Shown here: piece by piece, positions 6,859 to 31,224 of the stretch
How the letters are laid out: the number at the start of each line of letters is the position of its first letter
How positions within the stretch are numbered: position 1 is the first letter of the stretch
Origin: Symbiobacterium sp.
GTDB taxonomy: Bacteria; Bacillota; Sulfobacillia; UBA995; UBA9673
DNA length: 33,680 bases
Assembly (NCBI GenBank): GCA_020725405.1
Contig: DYFB01000002.1
Span: 1-33,680 of the forward strand
Direction of reading: 5' to 3'
Translations under genes and position numbers: made by a program
Notes under the pieces: generated by a model
Seen by the model: only the letters and a program-made list of their open reading frames with translations
Told to the model about the DNA's origin: nothing
Databases searched by the model: none

Positions 6859-6919
6859 GAGTCGGTCCTCCAATACCTCACGAGCGCTGTTGTCTTGAGC
6901 GATGGTCTCACGGAGCGGC

Positions 6920-7651: not shown

Positions 7652-7673
7652 GAATAGGCCTCCTCCTTGCCTT

Positions 7674-7703
7674 ATATGGTCACTGGTCTTACCAGTGCCA
7701 TAT
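7674..7703. promoter_or_regulatory. FadR-type GntR operator palindrome
   Basis: The core CACTGGT-CTT-ACCAGTG (7681-7697) is a perfect 7+3+7 inverted repeat containing TGGT-N3-ACCA, the consensus recognised by many FadR-subfamily regulators. Flanking ATATGG/CCATAT extends the symmetry to 30 bases with one extra T on the left. It sits just ahead of the GntR ribosome site and between two divergent transcription units, which suits autoregulation and control of both sides. Confidence 0.8.
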
Positions 7704-7771
7704 CTTTCGGGCCAACCGGCGGGAATCCTTCTGGCCGTGGAGAAATCCTCCGCGAGGAGCAGGCCGGTGCG

Positions 7772-7836
7772 GGCCGGCGTGACCGACCGGCGTGACCGAC
7801 CGGCGTAACCGATCGGCGTGACCGATCGGCGCAACT
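7772..7836. repeat. five tandem 13-bp repeats
   Basis: Units start at 7772, 7785, 7798, 7811 and 7824 and follow GRYCGGCGTRACC; the last unit is the most diverged. The array is noncoding, between the FadR-type operator and the glcD-like start. It could be a multi-site protein-binding array or a product of replication slippage. Confidence 0.8.
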
Positions 7837-7959
7837 GACCACCGGTGATCGACCGCCACGGCCCGCCCGCGACGTGCGGGGCCCGCCCGCGACGCCGCGG
7901 GGGCGGGACCTGGGGGGCGAAACCTGCCGGCGCGACCCAAGGGGAGGCGGGACCTCGGG

Positions 7960-16310: not shown

Positions 16311-16428
16311 CGAAACACCTCCTCTCGCCAGACCGGGAGCCAGCCGGTCGCGGGGCCGGGTCCGGCCCTCCGACCGGCGCCGGCCCTGCGGCCGGCATCT
16401 ATTCCGCGGCCGGCGTCGCGCCGCCGGC

Positions 16429-17463
16429 TCACGGGCCGGCCAGGAAGCGCACCAGGGCCAGGGCGGCCAGGCGGGCCGTCCTCTCCGACGGGTCGTAGGG
16501 TGGGGCGACCTCGACCAGATCGAGGGCCACCACCCTCTCATCCCGCAGTCCGGAAACCAGGGCCAGGAACTCCGAAGCGGTGAGCCCTCCGAAGTGGATG
16601 GCCCCCGTCCCCGGAGCTTCGGTCACGTCGACCACGTCGATGTCGATGGTCACGTAGAGACCGTGAACGCCGGGCTCGCCAGCGGGGGCGCCGGCCACGA
16701 ACTCCAGGGCCTCCCGGGCCGCCTCGGCCGGGCCGCGGCGGCGGATGTCGGCCGCGGTCCAGTACCGGAGGTTCTCCCGCCTGACGAACTCCCACTGCTC
16801 CCGGCGGACGAAACCTCGCTGCCCGAGCCAGGCCATGCGGCCGAGGCCGACAGAAGGCAGCTCGGAGACAAGCCGGGCCGTCGTCCCGTGGAAGTGCCGC
16901 CCGTAAATGGCGTTGTCCGACCCGAGGTCGAAGTGCCCGTCCACGTGGACGTAGCCCAGCCGGACCTCCTCGGGCCGGAGGCCCAAGCGGTCGGCCAGGC
17001 CGGCGACGACCCCCCGGACAGTGGGGTAAGTCACGTAGTGGTCGCCCCCGAGGACCAGGGGGACGGCCCCCCGGCCGGCGAGTCGCCGGAGCGCGTCCTC
17101 TACGCTGGCCGCGGTGCGCTCCGGGCTGGACGGGTAGACGCTCACGTCCCCGTAGTCGGCCAGGCCGCCAGCCGCCGGGGCCGACCCGGCGCCTACCCCC
17201 GGGTCGAACCTCTCCCCTGTCTCGAGGTCGACCATGACCGGATCAGGCGAGCTCGACGCGTAGTAGTGCAGGTGCAGCGAGGAATACCTGATGGCGTGCG
17301 GCCCGAAGCGGGCTCCCGGCCTCGATCCGCAACCCCCGTCGAAGGGGACGCCGACGACGACCCGCAGCCCCTCGACCACCTCGTCGAGCGAGACGGCCGG
17401 CGACCTGAGGAACGTCGCCAGCCCGGCGTAGGCCGGGAGCACCCGATCGTCCTGCTTGTACAT
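16429..17463 (-). CDS. ureohydrolase (formimidoylglutamase HutG / agmatinase family)
   Basis: The 344-residue product is an arginase-fold enzyme with all six manganese ligands recognisable: the His of LGGDHYVTYP, the Asp-His-Asp of HVDGHFDLG, and the Asp pair of TIDIDVVD followed by APGTGAIHFGG. It begins with the GVPFDGGCGSRPGARFGP pattern of agmatinase-type members. Between hutU and ftcD the likeliest job is formimidoylglutamate hydrolysis to glutamate and formamide (HutG), but another guanidino or formimino substrate is possible, so no symbol is given. The ATG at 17463 follows an AGAGGTAG site. The gap to ftcD is 118 bases of GC-rich, partly repetitive sequence. Confidence 0.85.
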   Translation of the reverse strand: MYKQDDRVLPAYAGLATFLRSPAVSLDEVVEGLRVVVGVPFDGGCGSRPGARFGPHAIRYSSLHLHYYASSSPDPVMVDLETGERFDPGVGAGSAPAAGGLADYGDVSVYPSSPERTAASVEDALRRLAGRGAVPLVLGGDHYVTYPTVRGVVAGLADRLGLRPEEVRLGYVHVDGHFDLGSDNAIYGRHFHGTTARLVSELPSVGLGRMAWLGQRGFVRREQWEFVRRENLRYWTAADIRRRGPAEAAREALEFVAGAPAGEPGVHGLYVTIDIDVVDVTEAPGTGAIHFGGLTASEFLALVSGLRDERVVALDLVEVAPPYDPSERTARLAALALVRFLAGP

Positions 17464-17543: not shown

Positions 17544-19196
17544 TCACTTCTCTATGGGTATCCTGAGCCCGTGCTCCTTTGCGGTCTCTATGGCCAGCTC
17601 GTAGCCGGCGTCCACGTGACGGTAGACGCCCGTCCCCGGGTCGGTCCTGAGGACGCGTCCCAGCCGCTCCGCGGCCTCGTCGGTCCCGTCGGCCACGACG
17701 ACCATGCCGGCGTGGATGGAGTAGCCGATGCCGACGCCGCCGCCGTGATGCACCGACACCCAACTCGCCCCGGCCGCCGTGTTGACGAGGGCGTTCAGGA
17801 TGGGCCAGTCGGCGATGGCGTCGCTTCCGTCGCGCATGCCCTCGGTCTCGCGGTTCGGCGAGGCGACCGAGCCGGCGTCGAGGTGATCCCGGCCGATGAC
17901 GATGGGGGCCTTGAGCTCGCCCTTCCTAACCATCTCGTTGAAAAGGAGGCCGATGCGGTCGCGCTCGCCGTAGCCGAGCCAGCAGATGCGCGCCGGGAGG
18001 CCCTGGAACTTGATCCTCTCCCGGGCCACCTTGAGCCAGCGGCCGAGGGCTTCGTTCTCGGGGAAGGTCCTGAGGACGGCCTCGTCGGTGCGGTAGATGT
18101 CCTCGGGGTCGCCCGAGAGGGCCACCCAGCGGAACGGTCCCTTCCCCTGGCAGAAGAGAGGTCTGATGTAGGCCGGGACGAAGCCGGGGAAGTCGAAAGC
18201 CTCCTTGACTCCGGCCTCGAGGGCCTGCTGGCGGATGTTGTTCCCGTAGTCGAAGACCACGCTCCCCTTGGCCTGGAAGTCGAGCATGGCCCGGACGTGG
18301 ATGGCGATGGACTCCCGGGCCCGGGCAACGTACTCCTTGGGCGAGGTCCGGCGGAGCTCGGCGGCCTCCTCCAGGCTGAGCCCGGCCGGAATGTAACCGT
18401 TGAGCGGGTCGTGAGCCGACGTCTGGTCCGTGACCACGTCGGGAATAATCCCCCTGAGCAGGAGCTGCTGGTGGGTCTCAGCGGCGTTTCCGAGGAGGGC
18501 CACGGACCTCGCCTGGCCCTTCTCCTTTGCCTCCATGACCAGGCTGACCGCCTCGTCGAGGTCGGCGGTCATCATGTCGCAGTAGCCGGTCTCGATACGC
18601 CGCTTGATACGGCTCTCATCGACCTCCACGGCCAGCACGGCCGCGCCGGCGATGGTCGCCGCCAGAGGCTGGGCTCCTCCCATGCCGCCGAGGCCGGCCG
18701 TGAGGACCAGGCGACCGGCCAGACTGGGACCGCCGAAGTGCTGGCGGGCGAGTTCAGCCAGGGTCTCGTACGTGCCCTGGATGATCCCCTGGCTCCCGAT
18801 GTATATCCAGCTCCCGGCGGTCATCTGGCCGTACATGATGAGCCCCTTCGCCTCGAGCTCCCAGAAATGGTCCCAGTTCGCCCAGGCCGGAACGAGCAGG
18901 GAGTTGGCGATGAGGACGCGCGGGGCCATCCGGTGGGTCCTGAACACGGCCACCGGCTTCCCTGACTGGACGAGAAGGGTTTCGTCGTTTTCCAGCTCCC
19001 GCAGGGTGCGGACGATGGCCTCGAACGCCTCCCAGTTGCGCGCGGCCTTGCCGCGGCCGCCGTAGACGACAAGGTCCTCGGGACGCTCCGCCACCTCGGG
19101 GTCGAGGTTGTTGTGGAGCATCCTCAGGGCGGCCTCCTGCTGCCACCCCTTGCACGAGATCTCGGCGCCCCGCGGGGCTCTCAACACTCTACTCAC
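17544..19196 (-). CDS. hutU: urocanate hydratase, canonical copy (HutU1)
   Basis: The 550-residue product has the full urocanase signature: [13 protein letters not shown] near residue 45, [14 protein letters not shown], the NAD+-binding [12 protein letters not shown] (about 168-179), and [10 protein letters not shown] with the essential active-site cysteine at 405. It continues with [29 protein letters not shown] and [14 protein letters not shown]. It converts urocanate to 4-imidazolone-5-propionate using tightly bound NAD+. The GTG at 19196 lies eight bases after AGGAGG. It heads the operon with hutG-like, ftcD and hutI, and with its textbook motifs it is the best candidate for the true urocanase among the three paralogues here. 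No hutH is present in the window. Confidence 0.95.
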
Positions 19197-19531
19197 GTCG
19201 CGGACCTCCTATTGTGGGCTCGTGTCCTCTCCGGGCTCGGGGCCGGCGGCAGGCCGCGACCGGGTCCGCCGCCGCTCGGAGTCTGGACCTCCGGCGCCGG
19301 GGACCGGGGAGGCCAGGACGGCATCCGGGATGAGCGCCATCGTCTGGACCTCCGGCGCCGGGGGACCGGACCTCCGGCCGGCCCGGGTCGGACGTCACCC
19401 GGCCTGATTCCTTCCCACAGGAAGGACACCCTTGTTAAACCTAGTTCCGCTTAACTACTAACACTCTAGCCTAACCTACCCACGGGCGGCGGTCGCCCTG
19501 CCGCGGGTCGCCCTGCTCCCCGACCGGCAGC
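19197..19531. other. intergenic region upstream of hutU1
   Basis: Most of these 335 bases are GC-rich and I see no gene. They hold two copies of a 22-bp repeat (19281-19302 and 19342-19363), a small hairpin CCTTCC-CACA-GGAAGG (19410-19425), and an AT-richer island at about 19430-19475. The island is the likeliest place for the hutU1 operon promoter, but no good -35/-10 pair can be named. The gap separates the DMT transporter's operon from the hut operon. Confidence 0.6.
19281..19363. repeat. two 22-bp direct repeats upstream of hutU1
   Basis: The same 22 bases, starting GTCTGGACCTCC and containing the palindrome CCGGCGCCGG, occur at 19281-19302 and 19342-19363 with a 61-base period. Similarity continues a few bases further with one inserted G. 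The location in the presumed 5' region of the hut operon makes a regulator site possible. Confidence 0.75.
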
Positions 19532-20482
19532 CTACCCTCCCGGCGGCGGGCCCGCGGCGGCCCCCGTCGGCCGTCCGGCCCTGGAACGCGCGGAGTCCCG
19601 GCGCAGGTCCCCGGCCTGGAGAATGAGAACCCCGCCGATGACGGCCACCCCGCCGAGCCACTGCAGGGTCTCCAGCCGCTCCCCGAGGAAGACCCAGGCC
19701 AGTGCGGCCCCGACCACCGGCTCGACGGAAGCGGTTATGCTGGCCCGGGAGGCCTCGATGTAGACCATGGCCCGAGTGAAGACGGCATAGGCCAGGAGAG
19801 TCGGAAAGAGGGCCACCAGGAAGAGGCCGCCCCAGACCTCGGGCGGCATCCGCGCCACGGCGCCGAGGTCGCCGAGACGGCTCCCGAGCAGGAGCAGCGA
19901 GCCGAACCCGAAGCCCCAGAGAACGACGGTCCAGGAGTTGTAGCGGCGGATGGCCGTCTTCCCGATGATGCTGTAGAGGGCCATGGCCAGGGCCGAGCCG
20001 AGCCCGCTCAGGACCCCTTTCAGGTTGAAGAGGAGGGCCCCGCGGTCGTAGGCCTGGACGACGAGAACGCACCCGGCGAGGGTGACGAACAGCGCAGTGA
20101 CCTTCACCGCATCCAGCCTTTCTCCGAGAAGGGCCGCCGCGAGCCCGGTGACGAAGGCCGGGTAGGTGTACATCAGGATGACGGCCATGGTCCCGGTCGT
20201 GTACTTGAAGGCGTAGAAGTAAAGGGCGTAGTTCAGGGCCACGCAGCTTCCGTAGCCCAGGAAGAGCGGGATGTCCCCGGCCTCCAGGGTGATGAGCCGC
20301 CGGTTCACGACCGCGAGGACCCCGCCGAGCATGATGAAGGCCATGGCCGCCCTCACGCCGACCATCGTCACGGGGTCCACTCCCGTGGCCACGAGAAGCT
20401 TACCCAGCACGACCAGAAGGGCCCACAGGCACCCGGCCAGAACGGCCAGGGCGTAGCCTACGAGCCTCCGCCCCTCAGGCAT
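19532..20482 (-). CDS. DMT-superfamily transporter (EamA family)
   Basis: A 316-residue protein with ten hydrophobic segments arranged as two EamA repeats. The first begins YALAVLAGCLWALLVVLGK; the second repeat begins about residue 150 and contains the conserved ASITASVEPVVGAALAWVFLGE element. The C-terminus is a short Arg/Gly/Pro tail. Family members export amino acids and other metabolites at the cytoplasmic membrane. ATG 20482 lies 14 bases after the hutU2 stop, so it is the last gene of the liv-caiB-acd-hutU2 unit. An export role, for example of an excess amino acid or a pathway by-product, is possible; direction and substrate cannot be read from sequence. Confidence 0.9.
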   Translation of the reverse strand: MPEGRRLVGYALAVLAGCLWALLVVLGKLLVATGVDPVTMVGVRAAMAFIMLGGVLAVVNRRLITLEAGDIPLFLGYGSCVALNYALYFYAFKYTTGTMAVILMYTYPAFVTGLAAALLGERLDAVKVTALFVTLAGCVLVVQAYDRGALLFNLKGVLSGLGSALAMALYSIIGKTAIRRYNSWTVVLWGFGFGSLLLLGSRLGDLGAVARMPPEVWGGLFLVALFPTLLAYAVFTRAMVYIEASRASITASVEPVVGAALAWVFLGERLETLQWLGGVAVIGGVLILQAGDLRRDSARSRAGRPTGAAAGPPPGG

Positions 20483-20496
20483 AGCGCACCTCCCAT

Positions 20497-22131
20497 CTAC
20501 TCGAGAAGGAGCTGTTCGCGCCTGGCGAGCTCCACGGCATCCTCATAGCCCGCGTCGGCGTGGCGCAGGACCCCGATACCCGTGTCCGACATCAGGACCC
20601 GCCGGATGCGGTCGTCCGAGGCCGGGTCCCCGTCGGCGATCAGCGTCACTCCGGCCGAAATCGACCCGCCCATCCCGCTCCCGGCCCCCTGATGGATGGC
20701 CACGAGATCGGCGCCGGCGCTGGCGTTGAGAAGGGCGTTCAGGAGCGGCCAGTCGGCGACGGCGTCGCTGCCGTCCCGCATGTTCTCGGTCTCCCGGGTG
20801 GGCTGGGCCACGGCTCCCGTATCAAGGTGGTCCCGGGTCATGGCCACCGGACCGGAGAGGCGGCCCTCCCGGACCAGCCGGTTGATCATCACCCCGGCCT
20901 CGGCCCGCGGGCCGTACCCGAGCCAGCAGGTCCGGCAGGGTAGGCCGCGGACGTGCGGGACGCGCCCGGCGAGTCCGAGCCAGCGAACCATGTTCGCGTC
21001 GTCCGGGAACATCCGGATGAGCTCCCGGTCGATAGCCTCGATGTCGGCCGGGTCGCCCGAGAGGGCCACCCAGCGGAAGGGCCCCCGCCCGACGCAGAAG
21101 CTCGGCCTGGCGAAGAGCTGGACGAAACCCTTGATGCGGAAGGCGTCGGCCACGCCGGCCGCCCTGGCCTGCCCGCGGATGTTGTTACCGTACTCGAAGG
21201 CGATGGCCCCCTTGGACTGGAACTCGAGCATCGCCCGAACGTGGAGGGCGATGGTCTCCATCGAGCGCCTGATGTACTCCTGGGGGTCGGTCCGCCGGAG
21301 CTCGTCGGCTTCCTGGAGGCTGAGCCCGGCGGGGTAGTAGCCGTTGAGGGCGTCGTGGGCGGAGGTCTGGTCGGTAACCACGTCGGGGACGATACCCTTC
21401 AGGGCCAGGAGGTTAGAGACCTCCGCTCCGTTGGCGACCAGGGCCACCGACAGGGCCTCCCCGCGCTCCTTGGCCTGGAGAGCCATGTGCAGGGCTTCGT
21501 CCACGTCGTGGGTCATGCGGTCGACGAGCCCGGCCTCGAGGCGCCGGCGGGTCTTCTCCTCGTCGACCTCGCAGATGATGACCACGCCCCCGTTCCAGGT
21601 GACCCCGAGAGGCTGGGCGCTCCCCATGCCCCCGAGGCCGGAGGTGAGGACGAGCCGGCCCTTCAGGCTGCCGCCGTAGTGCAGGCGGGCGCACTCGGCG
21701 AAATTCTCGAAGGTCCCCTGCATGATGCCCTGGGTCCCGATGTAGGCCCACGAACCGGCCGTGTACTGGCCGTACATCATGAGCCCCCGGGCCTCGAGGT
21801 CCCAGAAGGTCTCCCAGTTGGCCCAATTGCCGACGAGGTTGGCGTTGGCCATGACCACAAGCGGCGTCTCCCGGTTGGTGCGGAAGACGCCGATGGGCTT
21901 GCCGGACTGGACGGCCAGGGTCTGGTCCTCCTCCAGAACCTTCAGGCTGGCCACGATGCGGTCGAAAGCCTCCCAGTTGCGGGCGGCCTTCCCCGTCGCG
22001 GCGTAGATGACGAGCTCCTCCGGCTTCTCCCCGTTCTCGACCGTGTTCTCGAGCATGCGGAGCAGGCCTTCCTGGCGCCACCCCTTGCAGCGCAGGGTGG
22101 GGCCCCGCATTGCCTTGACTTGCCTGGGCAA
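20497..22131 (-). CDS. urocanate hydratase paralogue (HutU2)
   Basis: The 544-residue product is full-length urocanase family, with NAD+-binding SGLGGMGSAQPLG (about 164-176), GQYTAGSWAYIGTQG, RDHLDTGAVAQPTRETENM, and a cysteine at 402 equivalent to the catalytic one. Its cysteine motif is RGLPCRTCWLGYG instead of FQGLPxRICW. HHGGGVG is changed to HQGAGSG, the following SIHAG to SISAG, and YGGxGKAARNW to YAATGKAARNW. The TTG at 22131 is preceded by GGGAGG at eight bases. It follows the acyl-CoA dehydrogenase gene by 13 bases, in an operon with a CoA-transferase and an ABC importer. It is probably a working hydratase with altered specificity for a urocanate-like substrate, or a second urocanase; no symbol is given because the substrate is uncertain. 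Confidence 0.9.
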   Translation of the reverse strand: MPRQVKAMRGPTLRCKGWRQEGLLRMLENTVENGEKPEELVIYAATGKAARNWEAFDRIVASLKVLEEDQTLAVQSGKPIGVFRTNRETPLVVMANANLVGNWANWETFWDLEARGLMMYGQYTAGSWAYIGTQGIMQGTFENFAECARLHYGGSLKGRLVLTSGLGGMGSAQPLGVTWNGGVVIICEVDEEKTRRRLEAGLVDRMTHDVDEALHMALQAKERGEALSVALVANGAEVSNLLALKGIVPDVVTDQTSAHDALNGYYPAGLSLQEADELRRTDPQEYIRRSMETIALHVRAMLEFQSKGAIAFEYGNNIRGQARAAGVADAFRIKGFVQLFARPSFCVGRGPFRWVALSGDPADIEAIDRELIRMFPDDANMVRWLGLAGRVPHVRGLPCRTCWLGYGPRAEAGVMINRLVREGRLSGPVAMTRDHLDTGAVAQPTRETENMRDGSDAVADWPLLNALLNASAGADLVAIHQGAGSGMGGSISAGVTLIADGDPASDDRIRRVLMSDTGIGVLRHADAGYEDAVELARREQLLLE

Positions 22132-22144
22132 TCGAGTCGCCTCC

Positions 22145-23284
22145 CTACCCTCTGGTCAGCTGGTTCGCGATGACGATCCGCTGGATCTGGGACGTCCCCT
22201 CGAATATCTCGAGGATGCGGGCGTCGCGGAAGTACCTCTCGACGGCGTAGTCCTTCATGTAGCCGTAGCCGCCGTGGATCTGGACGGCGCGGTGGGCCGC
22301 CCTCATCGCCACTTCCGAGGCGTAGAGCTTGGCCATGGAGGCTTCCTTGCTTATCCGGCCCGGGCGGTCCTTGAGCCAGGCGGCCCGGTAGACGAGAAGG
22401 CGGGCCGCGTCTATCTCGGTGGCCATGTCGGCGAGCATCTCCCGGAGGACGGGCTGGGTGATGATGGGCTTGCCGAACTGGACCCGCTCGGCCGCGTACT
22501 TCAGCGCGGCGTCGAGACTCGCCCTGGCCATCCCCACGGCCATGGCCGCCACCTCGACGCGGGCCCGGTCGAGGATGGTCATCACCAGCCTATAGCCCTC
22601 GCCCTCCTCGCCGAGGCGGTTTTCCGCCGGGACCTCGCAATCCTCGAAGACGAGCTCCCAGGTGCAGGCCGACCTGATGCCCATCTTGTTCTCCTTGGTC
22701 CCCACCCGGAAACCGGGGGCGCCCCGGTCGACGATGAAGACCGTCAGCCCCCGGGTCCCCTCCCCCCTCTCCGTCCTGGCGCAGAGGGTGATATAGTCGG
22801 CCACTCCGCCGTTGGTGATGAAGTGCTTGACGCCGCTTACGATATAGCGGTCGCCCTTGCGGACCGCCGTGGTCGAGAGGGAGCCGAGGTCCGACCCGGC
22901 TCCCGGCTCGGTGAGGGCGAAGGCGGCGAGCTTCTCGCCGGCCGCGGCCGGGCGCAGGTACCTCTCTTTCTGCTGATCGGTGCCGGCAAGGTTCACCCCG
23001 TCCGACCCGAGATAGTGGGCCCCGAGTATCGACCCCATGGCCGCGCAGGCGTAGGAGATCTCCTCCATGGCCAGCATGTGGCTTATCGAGTCGGCCCCGA
23101 TGCCCCCCCACTCCTCCGGGTAGGAGATGCCCATCAGTCCGGCCTCGCCGAGCTTCCTCACGATGTCGAGCGGGAACTCCCCGCTCTCGTCCCTCTCGGC
23201 CGCGCCCGGGAGGAGCTCCCGGACGGCGAACGACTTGGCCAGTCGGGCTATGCTGAGCTGCTCGTCGGTGAAGGAGAAATCCAC
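22145..23284 (-). CDS. acyl-CoA dehydrogenase
   Basis: A 379-residue flavoprotein with the standard three-part fold. The N-terminal helical part includes SYPEEWGGIGAD. The middle beta domain has FALTEPGAGSDLGSL and KHFITNGGVADY. The C-terminal helices have QIHGGYGYMKDYAVERYFRDARILEIFEGTSQIQ, where the Glu at about 362 (FEGTSQIQ) is the catalytic base position of short-chain and butyryl-CoA-type enzymes. It should introduce a 2,3-double bond into an acyl-CoA and pass electrons to electron-transfer flavoprotein. The GTG at 23284 follows GGGGGGAT. It sits between a CaiB/BaiF CoA-transferase and a urocanase paralogue. This resembles the CaiA/CaiB pairing and suggests the acyl group is an imidazole-propionyl type, which is inference. 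Confidence 0.93.
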   Translation of the reverse strand: MDFSFTDEQLSIARLAKSFAVRELLPGAAERDESGEFPLDIVRKLGEAGLMGISYPEEWGGIGADSISHMLAMEEISYACAAMGSILGAHYLGSDGVNLAGTDQQKERYLRPAAAGEKLAAFALTEPGAGSDLGSLSTTAVRKGDRYIVSGVKHFITNGGVADYITLCARTERGEGTRGLTVFIVDRGAPGFRVGTKENKMGIRSACTWELVFEDCEVPAENRLGEEGEGYRLVMTILDRARVEVAAMAVGMARASLDAALKYAAERVQFGKPIITQPVLREMLADMATEIDAARLLVYRAAWLKDRPGRISKEASMAKLYASEVAMRAAHRAVQIHGGYGYMKDYAVERYFRDARILEIFEGTSQIQRIVIANQLTRG

Positions 23285-23317
23285 GGCTATCCCCCCAAGA
23301 AAGTGTTGACCAGACCC

Positions 23318-24508
23318 CTAAATCACGCGCTCCCGCTCGAGGGCGTCTATCTGCGACTCCTTCAAGCCGAGCAGGGTCGTGAGAACCTCCCTCGTGTGCT
23401 CCCCGAGGAGGGGGGAGGGACCCCGGACCCGGCCCGGGGTGTGGGAGAAGAGCACCGGCTGGCCGACGACCGGGACCCGACCTGCCTTGGGGTGGTCGAC
23501 CTCGCGGACGAGGCCCCGGGCGGCCACGTGCTCGTCGGCCAGGACCTCGGCCACGGAGAGGATCGGCGAGGCGGGGATTGAGTAGCCGTCGAGAACGGCG
23601 ACTATCTCGGCCACCGGCCGGCCGTCTATCCACTCCTCGATGAGTCGCTTGAGCTCCGGCTCGTGCTGGGTGCGGAGCTCGTCGGTCAGGAACCGGGGGT
23701 CGCGAGCCAGCTCCGGGCGCCCCATCGCCTCGGCCAGCCGGGCGAACATATCGTCGTTGGCCACGGCGATGATGACGTAACCGTCACCGGCCCGGAAGCT
23801 GTCGAAAGGGGTGCTGATGGGGTGCCGGTTTCCGACCCGCCCCGGGACCACACCCCCGTAGTTGCAGATGGCCGTGGCCGTCACTAGCAGCGAGAACACG
23901 CTCTCCATCATGGAGACGTCGATATGCTGGCCCATACCGGTGCGCTCCCGGGCGTAGAGGGCGGTCACTATCCCCCAGGCCGCGTAGAGCGCGGCGGTCA
24001 GGTCCCCGATCGACTCCCCGGCCCGGGTCGGAGGGCTGTCGGGGTAGCCGGTGACGCTCATCAGACCGCCCATGGCCTGGGCCACGATGTCGTAAGCCGG
24101 CCGGCCGGCGTAAGGCCCCCACTGCCCGAACCCGGAGATGGAGGCGAGGATGATGCGGGGGTTGACCCGCGAGAGCTCCGGGTAGCCGAGGCCGAGCCGT
24201 TCCAGCACCCCCGGCTTGAAGTTCTCGACGACCACGTCCGACCTGCCGACCAGCTTCTTGAAAAGGGCCACGGCCCGGGGGTCCTTGAGGTTGAGGGTGA
24301 TGCTCTTCTTCCCGCGGTTCAGGGAGATGAAGTAGCCGCTCTCCCCGTTCTTGAACGGGGCGAAGTGGCGTGAGTCGTCGCCTCGCCCGGGCTGCTCGAC
24401 CTTTATCACCTCGGCGCCCATGTCCGCGAGGAGCGCGGTGCAGAAGGGACCGGCGAGCACCCGCGAGAGGTCGAGGACCCGGATGCCGCTGAGCGCAGGA
24501 GTCGCCAC
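23318..24508 (-). CDS. CaiB/BaiF family (class III) CoA-transferase
   Basis: The 396-residue product begins GIRVLDLSRVLAGPFCTALLADMGAEVIKVEQP, the classic family III signature, and continues with FISLNRGKKSITLNL, VVENFKPGVLERLGLGY and YDIVAQAMGGLMSVTG. In the segment that carries the catalytic carboxylate (GQHIDVSMxxSV) the residue is Glu rather than the Asp of formyl-CoA transferase. Such a Glu occurs in parts of this family. It should exchange CoA between carboxylic acids, so it could charge an incoming acid using the CoA ester of the product. The GTG at 24508 lies 61 bases after livF, and the acyl-CoA dehydrogenase gene follows 33 bases later. Confidence 0.92.
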   Translation of the reverse strand: MATPALSGIRVLDLSRVLAGPFCTALLADMGAEVIKVEQPGRGDDSRHFAPFKNGESGYFISLNRGKKSITLNLKDPRAVALFKKLVGRSDVVVENFKPGVLERLGLGYPELSRVNPRIILASISGFGQWGPYAGRPAYDIVAQAMGGLMSVTGYPDSPPTRAGESIGDLTAALYAAWGIVTALYARERTGMGQHIDVSMMESVFSLLVTATAICNYGGVVPGRVGNRHPISTPFDSFRAGDGYVIIAVANDDMFARLAEAMGRPELARDPRFLTDELRTQHEPELKRLIEEWIDGRPVAEIVAVLDGYSIPASPILSVAEVLADEHVAARGLVREVDHPKAGRVPVVGQPVLFSHTPGRVRGPSPLLGEHTREVLTTLLGLKESQIDALERERVI

Positions 24509-24569
24509 AGACTGAGCCTCCTCCAGGCGGGGGACCGGTCAGCCCCCCGGACACGACCTCGGGGGCCGT

Positions 24570-25283
24570 CTAGCCCCCCAGGTACGATTTCTTGACCTCC
24601 GGGTTCGCCCGGAGCTCGGCCGCCGTGCCCTCCAGCACGAGGCGACCGGACGACAGGACGTACCCGCGGTCGGCTATCTCCAGAGCCTTCCTGGCGTTCT
24701 GCTCGACGAGGAAGATGGTCACACCCTCCCGGTGGAGGGTCTCGACGGCCCGGAAGACCTCGTCCACCAGGATGGGAGCCAGGCCGAGGGATATCTCGTC
24801 GACGAGCAGAAGCTTCGGCCGGGCGACCAGGGCCCGGGCGATGGCCAGCATCTGCTGCTGGCCGCCGCTGAGGGTCCGGCCGATCTGACCGGCGCGCTCC
24901 CTCAGGATGGGGAACATGGCGTAGGCCTTCTCGAGGTCGGCGGCCACGCCGTCCCGGTCGGTCCGGGCGTAGGCTCCGATACGCAGGTTCTCGAGGACGG
25001 TCAGCTCCGGGAAGATCCGCCGCCCTTCGGGGATCATCACTACCCCCATCCTCGACCGGACCCACGGCCTCAGGCCCGCCACATCCCGTCCCTGATAGCG
25101 GATAGAGCCCTGGGTGGGCCGGTGGAGGCCCATCACGGTCCGGAGGATGGTCGTCTTCCCGGCGCCGTTGGCCCCGACCAGGGTGACAAGCTCGCCTTCC
25201 CCGACCGTCAGGGAGACGCCGCTGACGGCCACTGAGTGGCCGTAGTGCACGGTGAGGTTCTCGATATCAAGCACGGTCTTCAC
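24570..25283 (-). CDS. livF: branched-chain amino acid-type ABC transporter ATP-binding protein (LivF)
   Basis: This 237-residue ATPase has Walker A GANGAGKTT, the LivF-typical IPEGRRIFPELTVLENL, the signature LSGGQQQM, Walker B LLLVDEISLGLAP, and the C-terminal SYLGG. It pairs with LivG to power an importer. The GTG at 25283 (MKTVLDIENLTVHYG) is preferred, with GGAGG close upstream; a GTG three codons later is possible, and a TTG at 25313 would lengthen it without family support. It overlaps the end of livG by 17 bases. The Liv label reflects the family; the cargo need not be a branched-chain amino acid, as relatives carry many amino acids and carboxylates. Confidence 0.93.
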   Translation of the reverse strand: MKTVLDIENLTVHYGHSVAVSGVSLTVGEGELVTLVGANGAGKTTILRTVMGLHRPTQGSIRYQGRDVAGLRPWVRSRMGVVMIPEGRRIFPELTVLENLRIGAYARTDRDGVAADLEKAYAMFPILRERAGQIGRTLSGGQQQMLAIARALVARPKLLLVDEISLGLAPILVDEVFRAVETLHREGVTIFLVEQNARKALEIADRGYVLSSGRLVLEGTAAELRANPEVKKSYLGG

Positions 25284-26034
25284 CCGCCTCCCCCCGGCCC
25301 AGGTAGGCCTCAATGACCACCGGGTCGCGCTGGATGGCCTCGGGCGACCCTTCGGCGATCTTCTCGCCGTGGTCGAGGACGGCGACCCGGTCGGCGACCC
25401 CCATGGCCACGTACATGTTGTGCTCGACCAGGACGACGGTGACGCCGGAGTCCTTCAGGCGGCGGATGAGGGCGGCTAGCTCCAGAGCCTCGTGATGGGT
25501 GAGCCCGGCGCAGGGCTCGTCGAGCAGGAGGAGCGTCGGGTCCATGGCCATGGCCCGGGCCAGCTCAAGGCGCCGCTGGTCCCCGTAGGCCAGAGTGCCG
25601 GCCGTGAGCCCGGCGCTGTCCTTGAGCCCCACGGCCGCGAGGAGCTCCTTGGCCCTCTCGACCTCGGCCGGGCGCCTGGCGCCGCCGACCAGACCCCGGG
25701 GGTCGATGTCGCCGCGGCCGAAGCCGAGGACGACGTTGTCAAGGACGGTGAGCTGCTTGAAGAGCCGGGTTATCTGGAAGGTCCGAGCCACGCCCAGCCG
25801 GGCTATCCGGTGGGTCGTCAGGCCGTGGAGCGGGCGGCCGGCGAGGTAGATCTCGCCCTCGTCCGGCCGGTAGACCCCGGAGATGACGTTGAACAGGGTC
25901 GTCTTCCCGGCCCCGTTCGGGCCGATGACCGCGAAAATCTCTTCCCGGCCGACCTCCAGGGTGACGGCCTTCAAAGCCGTGAGGCCGCCGAAAGCCTTGG
26001 TCACGCTGCGAACGGTGAAGATGGTGTCAGCCAC
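25267..26034 (-). CDS. livG: branched-chain amino acid-type ABC transporter ATP-binding protein (LivG)
   Basis: A 255-residue ATPase with Walker A GPNGAGKTTLFN, the LivG-specific THRIARLGVARTFQ segment, the non-standard signature LAYGDQRRLELARAM found in this subfamily, Walker B LLLLDEPCAGL and the H-loop VLVEHNM. It forms the nucleotide-binding heterodimer with LivF. The GTG at 26034 overlaps the livM stop by 8 bases, indicating translational coupling. The order livK-H-M-G-F is the classical one. Confidence 0.94.
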   Translation of the reverse strand: MADTIFTVRSVTKAFGGLTALKAVTLEVGREEIFAVIGPNGAGKTTLFNVISGVYRPDEGEIYLAGRPLHGLTTHRIARLGVARTFQITRLFKQLTVLDNVVLGFGRGDIDPRGLVGGARRPAEVERAKELLAAVGLKDSAGLTAGTLAYGDQRRLELARAMAMDPTLLLLDEPCAGLTHHEALELAALIRRLKDSGVTVVLVEHNMYVAMGVADRVAVLDHGEKIAEGSPEAIQRDPVVIEAYLGRGEAGEDRA

Positions 26035-26935
26035 CCTGGTTCACCCTCCCCCTCGCGCGTGCGGCCAGCCGCAGCTCCCGCCCGGCGAAGGCGCTCCCCA
26101 TTCCGAGGAGGCCCGAGGGCTGGAAGAGCATGAGCAGGACCAGAAGGCTGCCGTAGACGAGCATGCGGTAATCCTGGATGAACCGCAGGAGCTCCGGGGC
26201 GGAGGCCAGGACCACGGCCCCGACGACCGGCCCCCAGAGCGTGCCCGCCCCGCCCAGGACGACCATGCACATGATGGTGATGGACACGGGGAAGGCGAAG
26301 TCGTACGGGCTGATGAAGGTCATGAAGTGGGCGTAGAGACTCCCGGCGAGACCGGCAAGGGACGTCCCGAGGACGAAGGCGATGATCTTCAGCCTCGTCA
26401 CGTCCAGCCCGAGACAGCGCGCGGCGATCTCGTCCTCCCGCACGGCCGTGACCATGAGGCCGAGCCGTGAGCGGGAGAAGACCCAACACAGGGCCATGAC
26501 CAGAGCCACCACGGCCAGGACCAGCACCAGGTACTGGGGCTTCTGCAGGTTGTAGCCGAAGAGGGTCGGGCGGGGGATGCCGCCGAGGCCCAGAGCCCGG
26601 CCGAAGAAGGTGAAGTAGAGGAAGACCGATACGACCACGAAGTTGACGCCGATGGTCGTGATGGCCAGGAAGTCGTCCCTGACCCGAAGGCTTATCACCC
26701 CGAGGGCGAGCCCGACGACGGCCGTGATCAGAATGGCCAGCGGCAGGGCCGCCCAGAAGGACAGGCCGGCCTTCGTGGTCAGGAGAGCCGAGGCGTAGGC
26801 CCCGATGCCGAAGAAGGCCGCGTGGCCGAGGTTCGGCTGGCCGGCGTAGCCGGTGATGATGTTGAGCCCCGAGGCCAGGATGATGTAGATGCAGGTCATG
26901 GTCACGACGGTGACCAGGTAGAGTGAACTGATCAC
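26027..26935 (-). CDS. livM: branched-chain amino acid-type ABC transporter permease (LivM)
   Basis: The 302-residue membrane protein has about eight to ten hydrophobic spans and the family motifs GYAGQPNLGHAAFFGIGAY near residue 30, LRVRDDFLAITTIG, and AVREDEIAARCLGLDVTRLKI, the coupling-helix segment contacting the ATPases. It ends with the LMLFQPSGLLGMG element. The GTG at 26935 starts one base after the livH stop. Together with LivH it forms the membrane channel of the importer. Confidence 0.94.
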   Translation of the reverse strand: MISSLYLVTVVTMTCIYIILASGLNIITGYAGQPNLGHAAFFGIGAYASALLTTKAGLSFWAALPLAILITAVVGLALGVISLRVRDDFLAITTIGVNFVVVSVFLYFTFFGRALGLGGIPRPTLFGYNLQKPQYLVLVLAVVALVMALCWVFSRSRLGLMVTAVREDEIAARCLGLDVTRLKIIAFVLGTSLAGLAGSLYAHFMTFISPYDFAFPVSITIMCMVVLGGAGTLWGPVVGAVVLASAPELLRFIQDYRMLVYGSLLVLLMLFQPSGLLGMGSAFAGRELRLAARARGRVNQGG

Positions 26936-26936
26936 G

Positions 26937-27797
26937 CTAGCTCGCCCTCCCCAAAAGGCCGGTGGGTTTCACCAGCAGCATCAGGATCAGGACCAGGAAG
27001 GCTATCGCGTCGCGCGGCAGGAACGTCCCCACCCAGACCATCGTCAAGGTCTCGGCCAGGCCGAGGGCGAGCCCGGCGATGACCGTCCCCGGCACGCTGC
27101 CCATCCCGCCGAGGACGATGACCGCCAGGGCTTTGTAGGCCGGAACGCTGCCCATCGAGGGGTAGACCTGGTTGTAGTAGCCGCCGACCATGACCCCGGC
27201 CACGGCGGCGATGGCCGAGCCGATGACGAAGCACACCCCGATAATGACATCGGTGTTAATGCCGTGGGCGGCGGCCGTCTCTAGGTCCTGGGCCGACGCC
27301 CGCCAGGCCAGGCCCAGCCTGGTTCCCCTCATGAGCCACCACAGCCCGAGGAGAAGGCCGGCGGCCGCGGCCACGATGAAGAGCTGGTAGCCGGTCAGCC
27401 GCACCGCGGCGGTCTCGAACCCGGCGGCCCTGATCGTGACCGGAAGAGACTTAATGTAAGGTCCCATAACGAGACGGTAAAGGTCTTCGAGAAACATGAA
27501 CGCCCCTATGCTGATGATGAGCGGGACCAGCGGCGGCCGGCCCAGGACGGGGCGGTAGAGGAAGCGGTACATAATCAGCCCGGCGAGACTGCACACCACC
27601 GCCGCCGAGACGATAGCCAGGGCCAGGCTCCCTGTCGGGAGGTAGACCAGGACCCCGACGTAGGCTCCGAGCACAAAGACCCCGGCGTGGGCCACGTGCA
27701 GGATACGCAGGACGCCGTAGACCAGGGTGAGTCCCAGGGCGACGAGCGCATAGAGGCTTCCCAGGACCACACCGTTGGCGATCTGCTGGACGACCAA
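26937..27797 (-). CDS. livH: branched-chain amino acid-type ABC transporter permease (LivH)
   Basis: A 286-residue permease beginning VVQQIANGVVLGSLYALVALGLTLVYG, the conserved LivH opening, and containing GINTDVIIGVCFVIGSAIAAVAGVMVG and VLGGMGSVPGTVIAGLALG near the C-terminus. The TTG at 27797 is the only plausible start next to the strong AAGGAGG site, although the spacing of 11 bases is long. A 148-base gap with a strong hairpin separates it from livK, which probably lets the binding protein be made in excess over the membrane subunits. Confidence 0.93.
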   Translation of the reverse strand: MVVQQIANGVVLGSLYALVALGLTLVYGVLRILHVAHAGVFVLGAYVGVLVYLPTGSLALAIVSAAVVCSLAGLIMYRFLYRPVLGRPPLVPLIISIGAFMFLEDLYRLVMGPYIKSLPVTIRAAGFETAAVRLTGYQLFIVAAAAGLLLGLWWLMRGTRLGLAWRASAQDLETAAAHGINTDVIIGVCFVIGSAIAAVAGVMVGGYYNQVYPSMGSVPAYKALAVIVLGGMGSVPGTVIAGLALGLAETLTMVWVGTFLPRDAIAFLVLILMLLVKPTGLLGRAS

Positions 27798-27844
27798 GAG
27801 CTATCCGGCCTCCTTTCTTGCTTGCCGCGACCGGGTGAAGGGAG

Positions 27845-27887
27845 CGGGGCCCGCTCCGGCAGGGGACAGTTGTGGTAGCGGGCCCCG
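27845..27887 (-). terminator. stem-loop between livK and livH, probable partial terminator or mRNA stabiliser
   Basis: Perfect 11-bp arms CGGGGCCCGCT (27845-27855) and AGCGGGCCCCG (27877-27887) enclose a 21-base loop. There is no T-tract, so full termination is doubtful. The position directly after the binding-protein gene is where many ABC operons carry an attenuating or 3'-protecting hairpin. Confidence 0.6.
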
Positions 27888-27945
27888 TCCCGCCAAGCGC
27901 TGAGCGGCCGCTGGGACCGTCAGCACACCTACGTCAAGGCTCGTT

Positions 27946-29121
27946 TCAGTTCGGAGGAGTGATGATGGCCGGATCGTCGACAACGGAGAAGAAGTGGAAC
28001 GCACCGTCGCGGACAATCTGGACCTGGACCGGCTTGATCACTTCTCCCGAAGGCGTGAAGGCCTGGATGACGCCGGTGACGCCCTCGAAGTTGGTGAGCC
28101 CGGCAATCGCGTCGCGGATGGCCTGGGGCTCGAACCCTCCGACGCGCATCGCCTCGCAGACGATGAGGATGGCGTCGTAGGTGGAAGCCGCGACCATGTC
28201 GGCCGGCACGTTGAACCGGCTCTCGTAGGCCTGCAGGAACTCCTGAGCGATAGGCCGCATGTCGTCGCGGTTGAGGTTGGTCGTGATGATGATGCCCTCC
28301 GTCGCGGCCCCGCCGAGCTCCAGGAACTTGGGCGAGTCCATGCCTTCCATGCCGAGGATCTGGCAGGTGAGGCCAACGGTCTGGGCTCCCAGGGCGATGG
28401 CCGCGCCCTCGGCGTAGTAGCCCGTCGCGTAGAGCAGGTCTGGGTTAAGGCCCTTTATCTTGGTTAGCAGGGCCGAGAAGTCTTTCTCCCCGTACGGGTA
28501 GGCGTCGATCGAGAGAACCTTCACACCCCGGGCCTCGACAGTCTGCTTGAAGGTCTCGCCGAGGATGCGCCCGAAGTCGGTGTCGACCATGAGAATGGAG
28601 ACCTTCTTGGCCCCGAGGTCCCGGACCGCCACCTCGGCGGCGGCCAGACCCTGGACCGTGCCGACGAAGCTGTTGCGGAAGCAGAAATCGCCGGCGGCCG
28701 TGATGTCCGGATGGACCGCGTAGCCGGCGACCAGGGGTATCTTCGCCTCCTGGGCGATGGGCGCGACCGCGCGGGTCGGCGTGCTGTAGGAACCGCTGAC
28801 GATGGCCACGACCCCGTCGCGCTCGATCATCTGGTGGGCGACGGCCACGGCCTGGGCGCTGGAGAATTGGTCGTCGTAGGTCAGGAGCTCAACCTTCACG
28901 CCGTTGATACCGCCCGCGTTGTTCACCTTTTCGACAGCCAGGATGGCCGCGTTGGTGGCCGCCGCGCCGTCAGCCGCGGCCGGCCCAGTTATGGGGGCGA
29001 AGACGCCTATCTTGACGACCTGGGGCTCCTTTGGCTTGCAGCCGGCGAAGCTGAAAGCCAAGGCCACGATGAGAAGGCCGGCGAGTAGAGCGTTCACCCA
29101 CTTCCCCCTGTAAGCTGACAC
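27946..29121 (-). CDS. livK: ABC transporter substrate-binding lipoprotein (LivK family)
   Basis: The 391-residue product has a lipoprotein signal peptide: basic RGK, a hydrophobic stretch, then SFAGC with the lipidated cysteine at 28. The mature part is a type I periplasmic-binding fold of the Leu/Ile/Val family: VVKIGVFAPITGPAAADG, VELLTYDDQFSSAQAVAVAHQMI, VVAIVSGSYSTPTRAVAPIAQE, and a LLYATGYYAEGA hinge region. It captures the substrate outside the membrane for LivHMGF. The GTG at 29121 follows GGGAGG at nine bases. Being the first gene of a run that includes a CoA-transferase, an acyl-CoA dehydrogenase and HutU2, its ligand is probably the compound those enzymes degrade. The ligand itself cannot be read from sequence. 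Confidence 0.93.
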   Translation of the reverse strand: MSAYRGKWVNALLAGLLIVALAFSFAGCKPKEPQVVKIGVFAPITGPAAADGAAATNAAILAVEKVNNAGGINGVKVELLTYDDQFSSAQAVAVAHQMIERDGVVAIVSGSYSTPTRAVAPIAQEAKIPLVAGYAVHPDITAAGDFCFRNSFVGTVQGLAAAEVAVRDLGAKKVSILMVDTDFGRILGETFKQTVEARGVKVLSIDAYPYGEKDFSALLTKIKGLNPDLLYATGYYAEGAAIALGAQTVGLTCQILGMEGMDSPKFLELGGAATEGIIITTNLNRDDMRPIAQEFLQAYESRFNVPADMVAASTYDAILIVCEAMRVGGFEPQAIRDAIAGLTNFEGVTGVIQAFTPSGEVIKPVQVQIVRDGAFHFFSVVDDPAIITPPN

Positions 29122-29544
29122 GAGGCAAAACCTCCCAATTAGAAGCTCTGACGTTGCGGAAGCACCCGTCCCGCCCCTCGCCGGCGGCCGGATCTCACCA
29201 CCTCCTCGCTCCGGATAGAGGGCCCGTCGCAGCGACCCCTGCCGGGAGACGTGCGCCTGGCGCGGAGCCGGGGACTCCGGGTCCAGACTTCACCCGGCCG
29301 CCGGAGGCGTCCTTTGACAGGGCTTTAGAGTATTTTGACTATTCTTTGTGACTCATAGGTCGACGCTCGGAGATTCGAGGCTGGGATGAGGGAGAAGGAA
29401 GGCCGTGGAGGCTTGCAGCCCAGGCTCTTCGCTCGACCGGTACAAAGCGAATCCGCATTCTTAAAGATAGTCCTATATGGCAGGTTAGAGCTTATCCTTA
29501 ACGAAGAAAGGGCGATAGAAGCCACGGTTCGGAGGGATAGGCTC
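29122..29544. other. divergent intergenic region between livK and hutU3
   Basis: These 423 bases separate the two divergent units, and I see no gene. The part next to livK is GC-rich. From about 29310 the base composition becomes clearly more AT-rich, with two islands (29310-29360 and 29440-29520) that should hold the divergent promoters. The open frame that extends hutU3 upstream to 29386 runs through the second island and is not supported by family similarity or by a ribosome site. Confidence 0.6.
29314..29342 (+). promoter_or_regulatory. candidate sigma-70-type promoter for hutU3
   Basis: A consensus -35 TTGACA (29314-29319) is followed after 17 bases by GACTAT (29337-29342), a poor -10 match. 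It would give a leader of about 200 bases before the hutU3 start. The AT-rich island nearer the gene is an alternative location. Confidence 0.35.
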
Positions 29545-31209
29545 GTGACGCTAAGCCAGTCAGCAGCCCGAGCGCCGCGAGGGACGGACCTCTCATGCCA
29601 GGGGTGGGAGCAGGAAGGCCTGCTCCGGATGATGATGAACTGCCTTGACCCCGAGGTGGCCGAGAACCCGCACGACCTCATCGTCTACGGGGGGACGGGC
29701 AAGGCCGCCCGCAGTTGGGAGGCCTTCGAGGCCATCGCCGCGAGCCTGAGGGAGCTCGGCCCCGCCGAGACCCTCCTCATCCAGTCGGGTAAGCCGGTGG
29801 GCGTCCTGGCCACGGCCCCCCAGTCCCCGCGCGTCGTCATGTCAACAGCCATGCTCGTTCCCAAGTGGGCGACCTGGAACATCTTCCGGGAGCTCGAGGA
29901 TCTCGGCCTCACCTGCTTCGGCCAGTCGACGGCCGCGTCCTGGTCCTACATCGGAGCCCAGGGCATCCTCCAGAGCACGGCCGAGGTCTTCTCCGAGGTG
30001 GCCCGGCGTTACTTCGGCGGCACGCTCCGGGGACGACTGGTCGTCACCGCCGGCCTCGGCGGCATGGGCGCGGCCCAGCCGCTCGCCGTCACTCTGAACG
30101 GCGGCGTCGCCCTGGTCGTCGAGGTCGACGAGGGGCGCATCCGGCGCCGCTTGGCCTCGAACTACTGCGACATGATGGTCCGCGACCTGGGCCAGGCCCT
30201 CAGCCTGGCCGGCGAGGCTCTGACGTCCGGCCAGTCGCGGTCCATCGCCCTCCTTGGGAACGCGGCCGACATCCTGCCGGCCCTCCTGGAGCGCGACGTC
30301 GTCCCCGACGTCGTCACCGACCAGACCTCAGCCCATGACATGCTCTTCGGCTACATTCCCAACGGCATGCCCTACGCCGAAGCCCTGGAGCTCCGTCGCA
30401 CCGACCCGGAGGCCTACAAGGCGGCCGCCCTGGACTCCATCTGCCGTCACGTCCGGGCCATGCTCGAGATGTTGGACCGCGGGGCGGTGGTCTTCGAGTA
30501 CGGGAACGGCATCCGCGACCAGGCCTTGAAGGCCGGGGTGGAGCGGGCCTTCGCCTTCCCCGGCTACGTGAACGGCTACCTCCAGCCCCTCTACTGCCAG
30601 GGACAGGGCGCCATCAGGTGGATAGCCCTCTCGGGCGACCCCGGGGACATCTACGCCATCGACGAGGCCCTCTCGCGGAGGTTCGCCGCTGACGCGAACC
30701 TCGTCCGCTGGCTGGAGTTCGTCCAATCGCGCGTGGCCTTCCAGGGTCTGCCCGCCCGAGCCTGCTGGCTCACGTACGAGCAGCGGCAGGAGCTCGGCGT
30801 CCTGGTCAACGAGATGGTCCGGAAGGGGACCCTCTCCGCCCCGGTGGCCATCACCCGCGACCTCTCCCACACCGGAGCGGAGGCCTCGCCCTACCGCGAG
30901 ACCGAGGGCATGCCCGACGGAAGCGACACCGTTGCAGACTGGCCAGTCCTCAACGCCCTCCTCAACGCGGCCTGCGGGGCGAGCATGGTCTGCGTGAACC
31001 ACGGCCCGGGCGTGGGCATCGGCAACTCCATCCACGCGGGCTACTCCGTCATCGCCGACGGATCGGAGCTCGCCGGCGCGAAGCTCCGGAGCGTCCTTGC
31101 CGCCGACTGCGCCTTCAGTGTCGTCCGCTTCGCCGACGCCGGGTCCCGGCCGGCCGTCCGGAAGGCCATAGAGCTGGGGCTCAAGGTGCCACTCCTGCCA
31201 CGTGGCTAG
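29545..31209 (+). CDS. urocanate hydratase paralogue (HutU3)
   Basis: The GTG at 29545, nine bases after GGAGG, gives 554 residues aligned from end to end with urocanase; the frame is open for 53 more codons upstream without family similarity. NAD+-binding AGLGGMGAAQPLA (about 169-181) and the cysteine motif FQGLPARACW (Cys407) are kept. Other near-invariant stretches have changed: [17 protein letters not shown] is [27 protein letters not shown] is STAASWSYIG, HHGGGVG is NHGPGVG, and GTGVxRHADAGY is AFSVVRFADAGS. Several positions expected around the substrate pocket therefore differ, while the cofactor site looks intact, so a changed substrate or lost activity must be considered. It is co-directional with the AraC-type regulator gene that begins 16 bases later. 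Confidence 0.88.
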   Translation: MTLSQSAARAPRGTDLSCQGWEQEGLLRMMMNCLDPEVAENPHDLIVYGGTGKAARSWEAFEAIAASLRELGPAETLLIQSGKPVGVLATAPQSPRVVMSTAMLVPKWATWNIFRELEDLGLTCFGQSTAASWSYIGAQGILQSTAEVFSEVARRYFGGTLRGRLVVTAGLGGMGAAQPLAVTLNGGVALVVEVDEGRIRRRLASNYCDMMVRDLGQALSLAGEALTSGQSRSIALLGNAADILPALLERDVVPDVVTDQTSAHDMLFGYIPNGMPYAEALELRRTDPEAYKAAALDSICRHVRAMLEMLDRGAVVFEYGNGIRDQALKAGVERAFAFPGYVNGYLQPLYCQGQGAIRWIALSGDPGDIYAIDEALSRRFAADANLVRWLEFVQSRVAFQGLPARACWLTYEQRQELGVLVNEMVRKGTLSAPVAITRDLSHTGAEASPYRETEGMPDGSDTVADWPVLNALLNAACGASMVCVNHGPGVGIGNSIHAGYSVIADGSELAGAKLRSVLAADCAFSVVRFADAGSRPAVRKAIELGLKVPLLPRG

Positions 31210-31224
31210 AGCGGGGTGATCCAC

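Follow-up and report, generated by a model that had tools for sequence, protein, structure and literature searches.

What do a coenzyme A (CoA)-transferase and an acyl-CoA dehydrogenase (ACD) do in a run of genes that otherwise encodes an importer, a urocanase and a putative exporter? The question is raised by a stretch of 33,680 nucleotides from Symbiobacterium sp. (assembly GCA_020725405.1, contig DYFB01000002.1, positions 1 to 33,680 of the forward strand), referred to here as the window. An earlier note had read positions 19532-29121 as a minus-strand run of LivKHMGF, a CaiB/BaiF CoA-transferase, a short-chain-type ACD, a diverged urocanase and an EamA exporter, and had proposed that the run imports imidazolepropionate or an analogue, charges it with CoA, desaturates it to the urocanyl level and hydrates it. 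Our analysis shows that the locus is real and unusual, and that this interpretation is partly supported. The explanation that we place first, tentatively and with somewhat less than even confidence, is that a histidine-pathway unit for import and degradation contains a CoA loop acting on imidazole acids, for which the reductive direction is counted ahead of the oxidative one. The link to a histidine-side-chain compound is good and the CoA loop is chemically sound; the substrate and the direction of the loop are what we infer.

Profile comparison confirmed all nine open reading frames (ORFs) of the run, each on the minus strand and matching its named family. They encode an EamA/DMT-family transporter that is a possible exporter (19532-20482), the diverged urocanase HutU2 (20497-22131), the ACD (22145-23284), the family III CoA-transferase CaiB (23318-24508), the ATPases LivF (24570-25313, its true start probably an in-frame GTG near 25283) and LivG (25267-26034), the permeases LivM (26027-26935) and LivH (26937-27797), and LivK, the substrate-binding protein of the importer (27946-29121). 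The G+C content at third codon positions is 0.88-0.93 across the nine ORFs. Genes are spaced by -47 to +148 bp and a Shine-Dalgarno-like purine-rich stretch precedes most starts, an arrangement that fits a single operon.

The assigned identities of the two CoA enzymes held up. CaiB matches CoA_transf_3 (PF02515) at 469 bits, and its Asp169 aligns with the catalytic Asp of human SUGCT; the ACD contains all three ACD domains and retains the catalytic Glu362. The best curated family of the ACD is acryloyl-CoA reductase AcrC (NF042972), whose cut-off it does not reach (453 vs 640 bits), and the carnitine models CaiA and CaiB were likewise missed (207 vs 540 and 140 vs 413 bits). The best PDB match of the ACD is 5OL2, which we take to be butyryl-CoA dehydrogenase from the Bcd-Etf complex; 6FAH, the CarC subunit of the caffeyl-CoA reductase complex, is also among its matches. 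The nearest CaiB relative outside the host's family lies in genome G032, in a cluster ordered ACD-EtfB-EtfA-CaiB. Pairs of electron-transfer flavoprotein (ETF) genes are found elsewhere in the host genome, on contigs C68 and C97, the latter in an ACD-EtfAB cluster with an HpaB-family gene.

Two other neighbourhoods bring similar enzymes near urocanases. In three species of one genus (G033, G051 and G063; loci L165, L167 and L166), an ACD about 50% identical to that of the window directly follows HutU, apart from other hut genes, and in G063 (L166) a PrpR_N/sigma-54 regulator comes after this ACD. These ACDs were rejected as orthologues, since at about 50% they are not the closest ACDs of their genomes, and they therefore represent at best an independent HutU-ACD association. 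On Paracoccus aminophilus plasmid pAMI4 (L194/L201), a thiourocanate hydratase-amidohydrolase-DUF917 cluster has as neighbours genes for MaoC, SDR, CoA-transferases and two distant ACDs; the pAMI4 CoA-transferase is 48% identical to the window CaiB and the one ACD that aligned only about 27% to the window ACD. Both neighbourhoods are suggestive as recurrences, and they are not orthologous systems.

Conservation of the locus was followed in 154 genomes of the class. Genome G001, from the same family and a different genus, carries ACD-CaiB-LivFGMHK on contig L122 together with a divergent pair formed by a further urocanase, HutU3, and an AraC-type regulator, all at 59-82% identity to the window (CaiB 82%, LivH 81%, LivM 78%, LivG and LivK 73% each, and the ACD 78% over 293 aa). 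The ratio of nonsynonymous to synonymous substitution rates between the two genomes is about 0.14 for caiB and for acd alike; purifying selection acts on both genes. Recurrence of LivKHMGF-CaiB-ACD with HutU3-AraC in another genus makes the locus more than a chance assembly.

Relatives in several families bear out the tie between the importer and histidine degradation that had been proposed earlier. In other families, G032, G048 and G069 share the order Liv-HutU-HutU3-like, with AraC next in G032 and G048; G025 has HutU-HutI-FtcD-AraC-LivKHMGF; and G058 has LivKHMGF-HutU-arginase-HutI, the order of the window without CaiB-ACD-HutU2-EamA. The window LivK is 44-55% identical to the hut-linked LivK proteins of G032, G048, G025 and G058, and in G032, G048 and G058 hutU is directly adjoined by the closest retrieved relatives of each of the five Liv subunits. 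Because close Liv relatives adjoin hutU in other families, a compound of the histidine pathway is the probable cargo of the importer, and because they do so without CaiB or ACD, caiB-acd-hutU2-eamA looks like an insertion into an ancestral hut transport unit.

HutU2 is one of exactly three urocanases in the host genome, all of which are inside the window. It has all three Pfam urocanase domains and scores 781 bits against TIGR01228 (cut-off 375), for which the canonical urocanase HutU1 (17544-19196, minus strand) scores 992 bits. The possibility that HutU2 is a plain duplicate of HutU1 was rejected on their 59% identity and separate tree positions. In a maximum-likelihood tree widened by PDB 7NED (1014 bits on the thiourocanate hydratase model NF058530, above its cut-off) and by plasmid-borne relatives, HutU2 joins the thiourocanate hydratases at 100/97, outside the thio clade proper (100/98); an approximately unbiased (AU) test gave p 0.06 for grouping HutU2 with canonical HutU, which is thus not strictly rejected. 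HutU2 misses the cut-offs of NF058530 (700 vs 930 bits) and of the S-methyl thiourocanate hydratase model NF058531 (735 vs 880 bits), of which no member above cut-off was found in 399 genomes of the phylum.

The residues of HutU2 are similarly mixed (numbering is that of the P. putida chain throughout). With the thiourocanate hydratases it shares the changes of GG53-54 to AA and of H501 to S, at sites otherwise about 99% invariant, and it retains the canonical Q131, Y323, N326, C411, R455 and E456, which are mostly changed in those enzymes; none of the thiourocanate-typical Q131G, Y323N, R455I and E456M occurs in it. M132 to Y and S452 to Q are unique to HutU2 or nearly so. From the urocanase family annotation, GG53-54 and Q131 are presumably NAD+ contacts. 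Judged by tree and residues, the most apt description of HutU2 is a stem relative of the thiourocanate hydratases whose pocket is mostly canonical; assignment as a thiourocanate or S-methyl-thiourocanate hydratase was rejected on cut-offs and pocket residues. It is in any case a real, non-orthologous urocanase paralogue, as had been claimed, and its affinity to the 2-thio-urocanate enzymes is in line with the suggestion in the earlier note of a thio or N-methyl analogue as substrate. A second HutU2-like urocanase, in G042 (L118 6223-7977), is 48% identical, has the same change of M132 to Y and a very long branch, and adjoins HutI and FtcD. On Agrobacterium plasmid pAtAF1_95 (L195), LivKHMGF, a molybdopterin S/N-oxide reductase, GST and DUF917 surround a thio-side urocanase.

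In which direction would a CoA loop run in this host? The search for respiratory enzymes covered haem-copper oxidase (COX1) and bd oxidase, neither of which had a match in the host genome. Of the Wood-Ljungdahl pathway, the search covered CdhC/acetyl-CoA synthase, which is encoded there. The lack of both oxidases and the presence of acetyl-CoA synthase indicate that the host is probably a Wood-Ljungdahl anaerobe. Window positions 1018-3864 (minus strand) hold genes for a DUF362 protein, a MetF-type methylenetetrahydrofolate reductase and a short cysteine-rich MetV-like protein, which agree with a Wood-Ljungdahl organism. The potentials of saturated/unsaturated acyl-CoA couples are close to -10 mV (crotonyl-CoA) and -30 mV (caffeyl-CoA) (PMC5861303), and such couples would therefore serve a Wood-Ljungdahl cell better as electron sink than as electron source. 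As no terminal oxidase was found for electrons at such potentials, reduction of a urocanate-type CoA ester is rated slightly more likely than oxidation of an imidazolepropionate-type ester. Anaerobes that divide histidine between glutamate and imidazolepropionate have been described, the latter branch running via UrdA (PMC13320830). The one histidine ammonia-lyase of the host genome, HutH, is encoded on another contig.

The proposed mechanism is as follows. Liv would import an imidazole-acrylate or imidazole-propionate type acid, and the CaiB-type transferase would shuttle CoA between the saturated and the unsaturated acid, so that no ATP would be spent. The ACD would interconvert both thioesters with ETF encoded elsewhere, HutU2 would act as hydratase of the unsaturated acid, be it urocanate or one of its 2- or N-substituted relatives, and ordinary urocanate would be converted to glutamate by HutU1, HutI and FtcD. 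In reductive mode the urocanate-type acid would be an electron sink and the imidazolepropionate-type acid would perhaps exit by EamA, a Stickland-like split beside the Hut-to-glutamate branch. A urocanyl-CoA/imidazolepropionyl-CoA couple run in a hut operon by a CaiB-type transferase and an ACD, either as UrdA-independent urocanate reduction, in effect a histidine branch of Stickland-type metabolism, or as imidazolepropionate breakdown, and paired with a neofunctionalised HutU2 and a possible sensor HutU3, is a possibility that we regard as substantial and as falling short of probable.

Several observations weigh against such a loop. The nine genes of the operon include neither etf nor a CoA ligase, and the nearest named families of CaiB are enzymes of dicarboxylates (succinate, mesaconate and glutarate), each below cut-off. 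The conservation of a caiB-acd-hutU2 linkage, which the earlier note had made a check of its proposal, was found in part: caiB-acd-liv-hutU3-araC is kept in one other genus, but the CaiB orthologue occurs in 2 of the 154 class genomes (the host and G001) and is lacking from the other 152. The G001 contig terminates within acd, with the position of hutU2 beyond view, and the 80 closest urocanase loci include no caiB-acd-hutU neighbourhood. For the importer argument, the hut-linked Liv loci were retrieved via urocanase, which is a selection bias, and closer Liv systems may exist elsewhere in those relatives' genomes. As to direction, the genome is 95% complete and its absences are not absolute, and oxidation might be served by other anaerobic acceptors such as nitrate, sulfate and fumarate.

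Among the competing explanations, the one that survives best is that the substrate of CaiB and the ACD is an ordinary dicarboxylic or short acyl acid, derived for example from fermentation of Hut-derived glutamate, and that both are only co-regulated with a redundant or specialised HutU2. The best curated matches of CaiB, succinyl-CoA:mesaconate and succinate-glutarate transferases, would suit this explanation, as would the butyryl-CoA-dehydrogenase-like character of the ACD and the presence of other fermentation-type genes in the genome, such as the C97 cluster. It leaves unaccounted for a block that has the hut transporter on one side and HutU2/HutU1 on the other, and a caiB-acd pair that a second genus has kept together with Liv and HutU3-AraC, and neither enzyme reaches the cut-off of a named family; we consider it rather unlikely, while still a serious competitor to the imidazole-acid loop.

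The oxidative route, in which imidazolepropionate or its thio or N-methyl analogue would be imported and charged and HutU2 would hydrate the product of its desaturation to the urocanyl level, is unlikely, and the direction that the earlier note had preferred has become doubtful. The route gains from an importer and a hydratase that share one operon with CaiB and the ACD and from a HutU2 that is not a redundant copy of HutU1 and inclines towards the thiourocanate hydratases, as well as from the pAMI4 CoA-transferase and ACDs beside such a hydratase, distant as the aligned ACD is. However, no electron acceptor for the ACD is apparent in a genome that encodes acetyl-CoA synthase and in which neither oxidase was found, and thiohydantoin genes (amidohydrolase, N-carbamoyl hydrolase and DUF917) are not near the locus. 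The single DUF917 gene of the genome, considered as a thiohydantoin-cluster member, was rejected; it lies elsewhere, with an AroM-like ORF as neighbour. Use of urocanate as an electron sink, which had been mentioned as an alternative, emerges as at least as likely as oxidation.

A further reading places HutU2 in the family of thiourocanate or of S-methyl-thiourocanate hydratases and makes the operon a system for ergothioneine-type compounds. It is improbable, for the position of HutU2 in the tree, its shared AA and S substitutions and the LivKHMGF genes of the Agrobacterium cluster are set against two missed cut-offs, a place outside the thio clade proper, a retained set of canonical residues, a canonical grouping that the AU test did not strictly reject, a genome with no second HAL-family lyase and a locus from which desulfurase and hydantoinase steps are absent.

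The third urocanase and its regulator are additional to the earlier description of the locus. HutU3 (29386-31209, plus strand) is divergent from livK and has altered substrate-side residues. It passes the TIGR01228 cut-off and retains GG53-54, Q131, Y323 and C411; in both genera of the family, H444 is changed to L, D446 to H and H489 to N, at positions that are invariant across the canonical and thio enzymes examined. The AraC-type regulator (31216-32835, plus strand) contains a GGDEF-like and a weak receiver domain, and proteins of similar make-up lie beside HutU3 in relatives. The two genes adjoin in every genome where both are visible, and HutU3-type genes beside an AraC/GGDEF-like regulator occur in five class genomes: that of the window, G001, G032, G048 and G035 (beyond the window, L122 7092-8810 in G001, L116 7835-9505 in G035, and L115 8543-10168 and L119 1271-2944 in the other two). 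HutU3 might have an altered substrate or a sensing role, possibly as an enzyme turned sensor for the AraC-type regulator. In G035 a 125-residue HutU fragment (L116 5738-6217), apparently the remnant of a displaced hutU, lies between LivF and the HutU3-type gene.

On the EamA side of the operon, a 335-bp gap is followed on the same strand by HutU1, an arginase-superfamily ureohydrolase (16429-17463), the glutamate formimidoyltransferase FtcD (15372-16541, its domain beginning near residue 83 of the ORF) and the imidazolonepropionase HutI (14068-15375). HutI and FtcD are thus present next door as had been stated, but the accompanying HutG is unsure, since the arginase-family protein misses the HutG cut-off (110 vs 229 bits); it is also under the agmatinase cut-off. 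A promoter scan of the window gave 0 sites, and terminator-like sites in it were no more frequent than chance. The 9-mer GGTCCAGAC, picked by eye, has 4 copies in the window against 0.58 expected (19281-19289, 19342-19350, 29280-29288 and 4879-4887), three of them in two spacers, the one ahead of hutU1 and the one that separates livK from hutU3; it was not found in the G001 contig. Directly downstream of hutI is a MoxR ATPase and VWA pair (11655-14068, minus strand), with matches to MadB/MadC models below cut-off. Positions 5593-10766 hold genes for an isopropylmalate/homocitrate-synthase-like protein and a GntR regulator, which are transcribed divergently from those for a GlcD/GlcF-type oxidase pair.

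Imidazolepropionate, a metabolite of microbial origin, has been linked to type 2 diabetes. Its described source is UrdA (PMC13320830, PMC7921117). In the literature searched, nothing relevant was found on CoA-dependent imidazolepropionate breakdown and there was no mention of urocanyl-CoA. If the proposal is correct, the CoA-dependent pair would be a second source of imidazolepropionate or its first known gene-level sink, and the CoA-loop design of caffeate, cinnamate and carnitine metabolism would extend to histidine. It would also provide functional anchors for urocanase paralogues to which automatic annotation gives the plain name urocanate hydratase; the TIGR01228 cut-off is exceeded by HutU2 and by HutU3 despite their differences at key positions.

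How, then, does the locus compare with known systems? In caffeate respiration (CarA-E, with CarCDE), CoA is handed on by a transferase. Acetobacterium woodii, a Wood-Ljungdahl anaerobe, reduces the arylacrylate as its CoA thioester with an ACD-type reductase and ETF (PMC5861303). The window resembles this system in the acetyl-CoA synthase of the host and in having CarC among the PDB matches of its ACD, and differs in an operon without etf or CoA ligase, a presumed imidazole substrate, and linked importer and urocanases. The reductive Stickland pathway of aromatic amino acids employs the CoA-transferase FldA, an acyl-CoA dehydrogenase and EtfAB. Here the likeness would be that a family III CoA-transferase, together with an ACD and ETF, leads by way of an acrylate to the arylpropionate; the differences are that HutH, encoded on the other contig, would replace the hydroxyacyl-CoA dehydratase and that hutU is linked to an import operon. 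In the HutH-UrdA reductive histidine pathway, urocanate is converted to imidazolepropionate as an electron sink beside the route from Hut to glutamate (PMC13320830, PMC7921117). Overall chemistry would be equal to that of the reductive loop, but the flavin enzyme UrdA reduces free urocanate, whereas the window route would use a CoA thioester. Carnitine CaiA and CaiB interconvert saturated and unsaturated acyl-CoA as dehydrogenase and transferase, and the window proteins fall far under the cut-offs of both models. To the thiourocanate hydratase clusters (NF058530; PDB 7NED) the window is related by the tree side and several signature changes of HutU2, by the adjacent CoA-transferase and ACDs of the Paracoccus thio cluster and by the LivKHMGF of the Agrobacterium cluster, and it is set apart from them by a HutU2 below the family cut-off, a mostly canonical pocket and missing thiohydantoin steps. 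The window enzymes reach no tested curated CoA-loop subfamily, and the loop proposed for them would work like those of caffeate respiration and the aromatic Stickland pathway.

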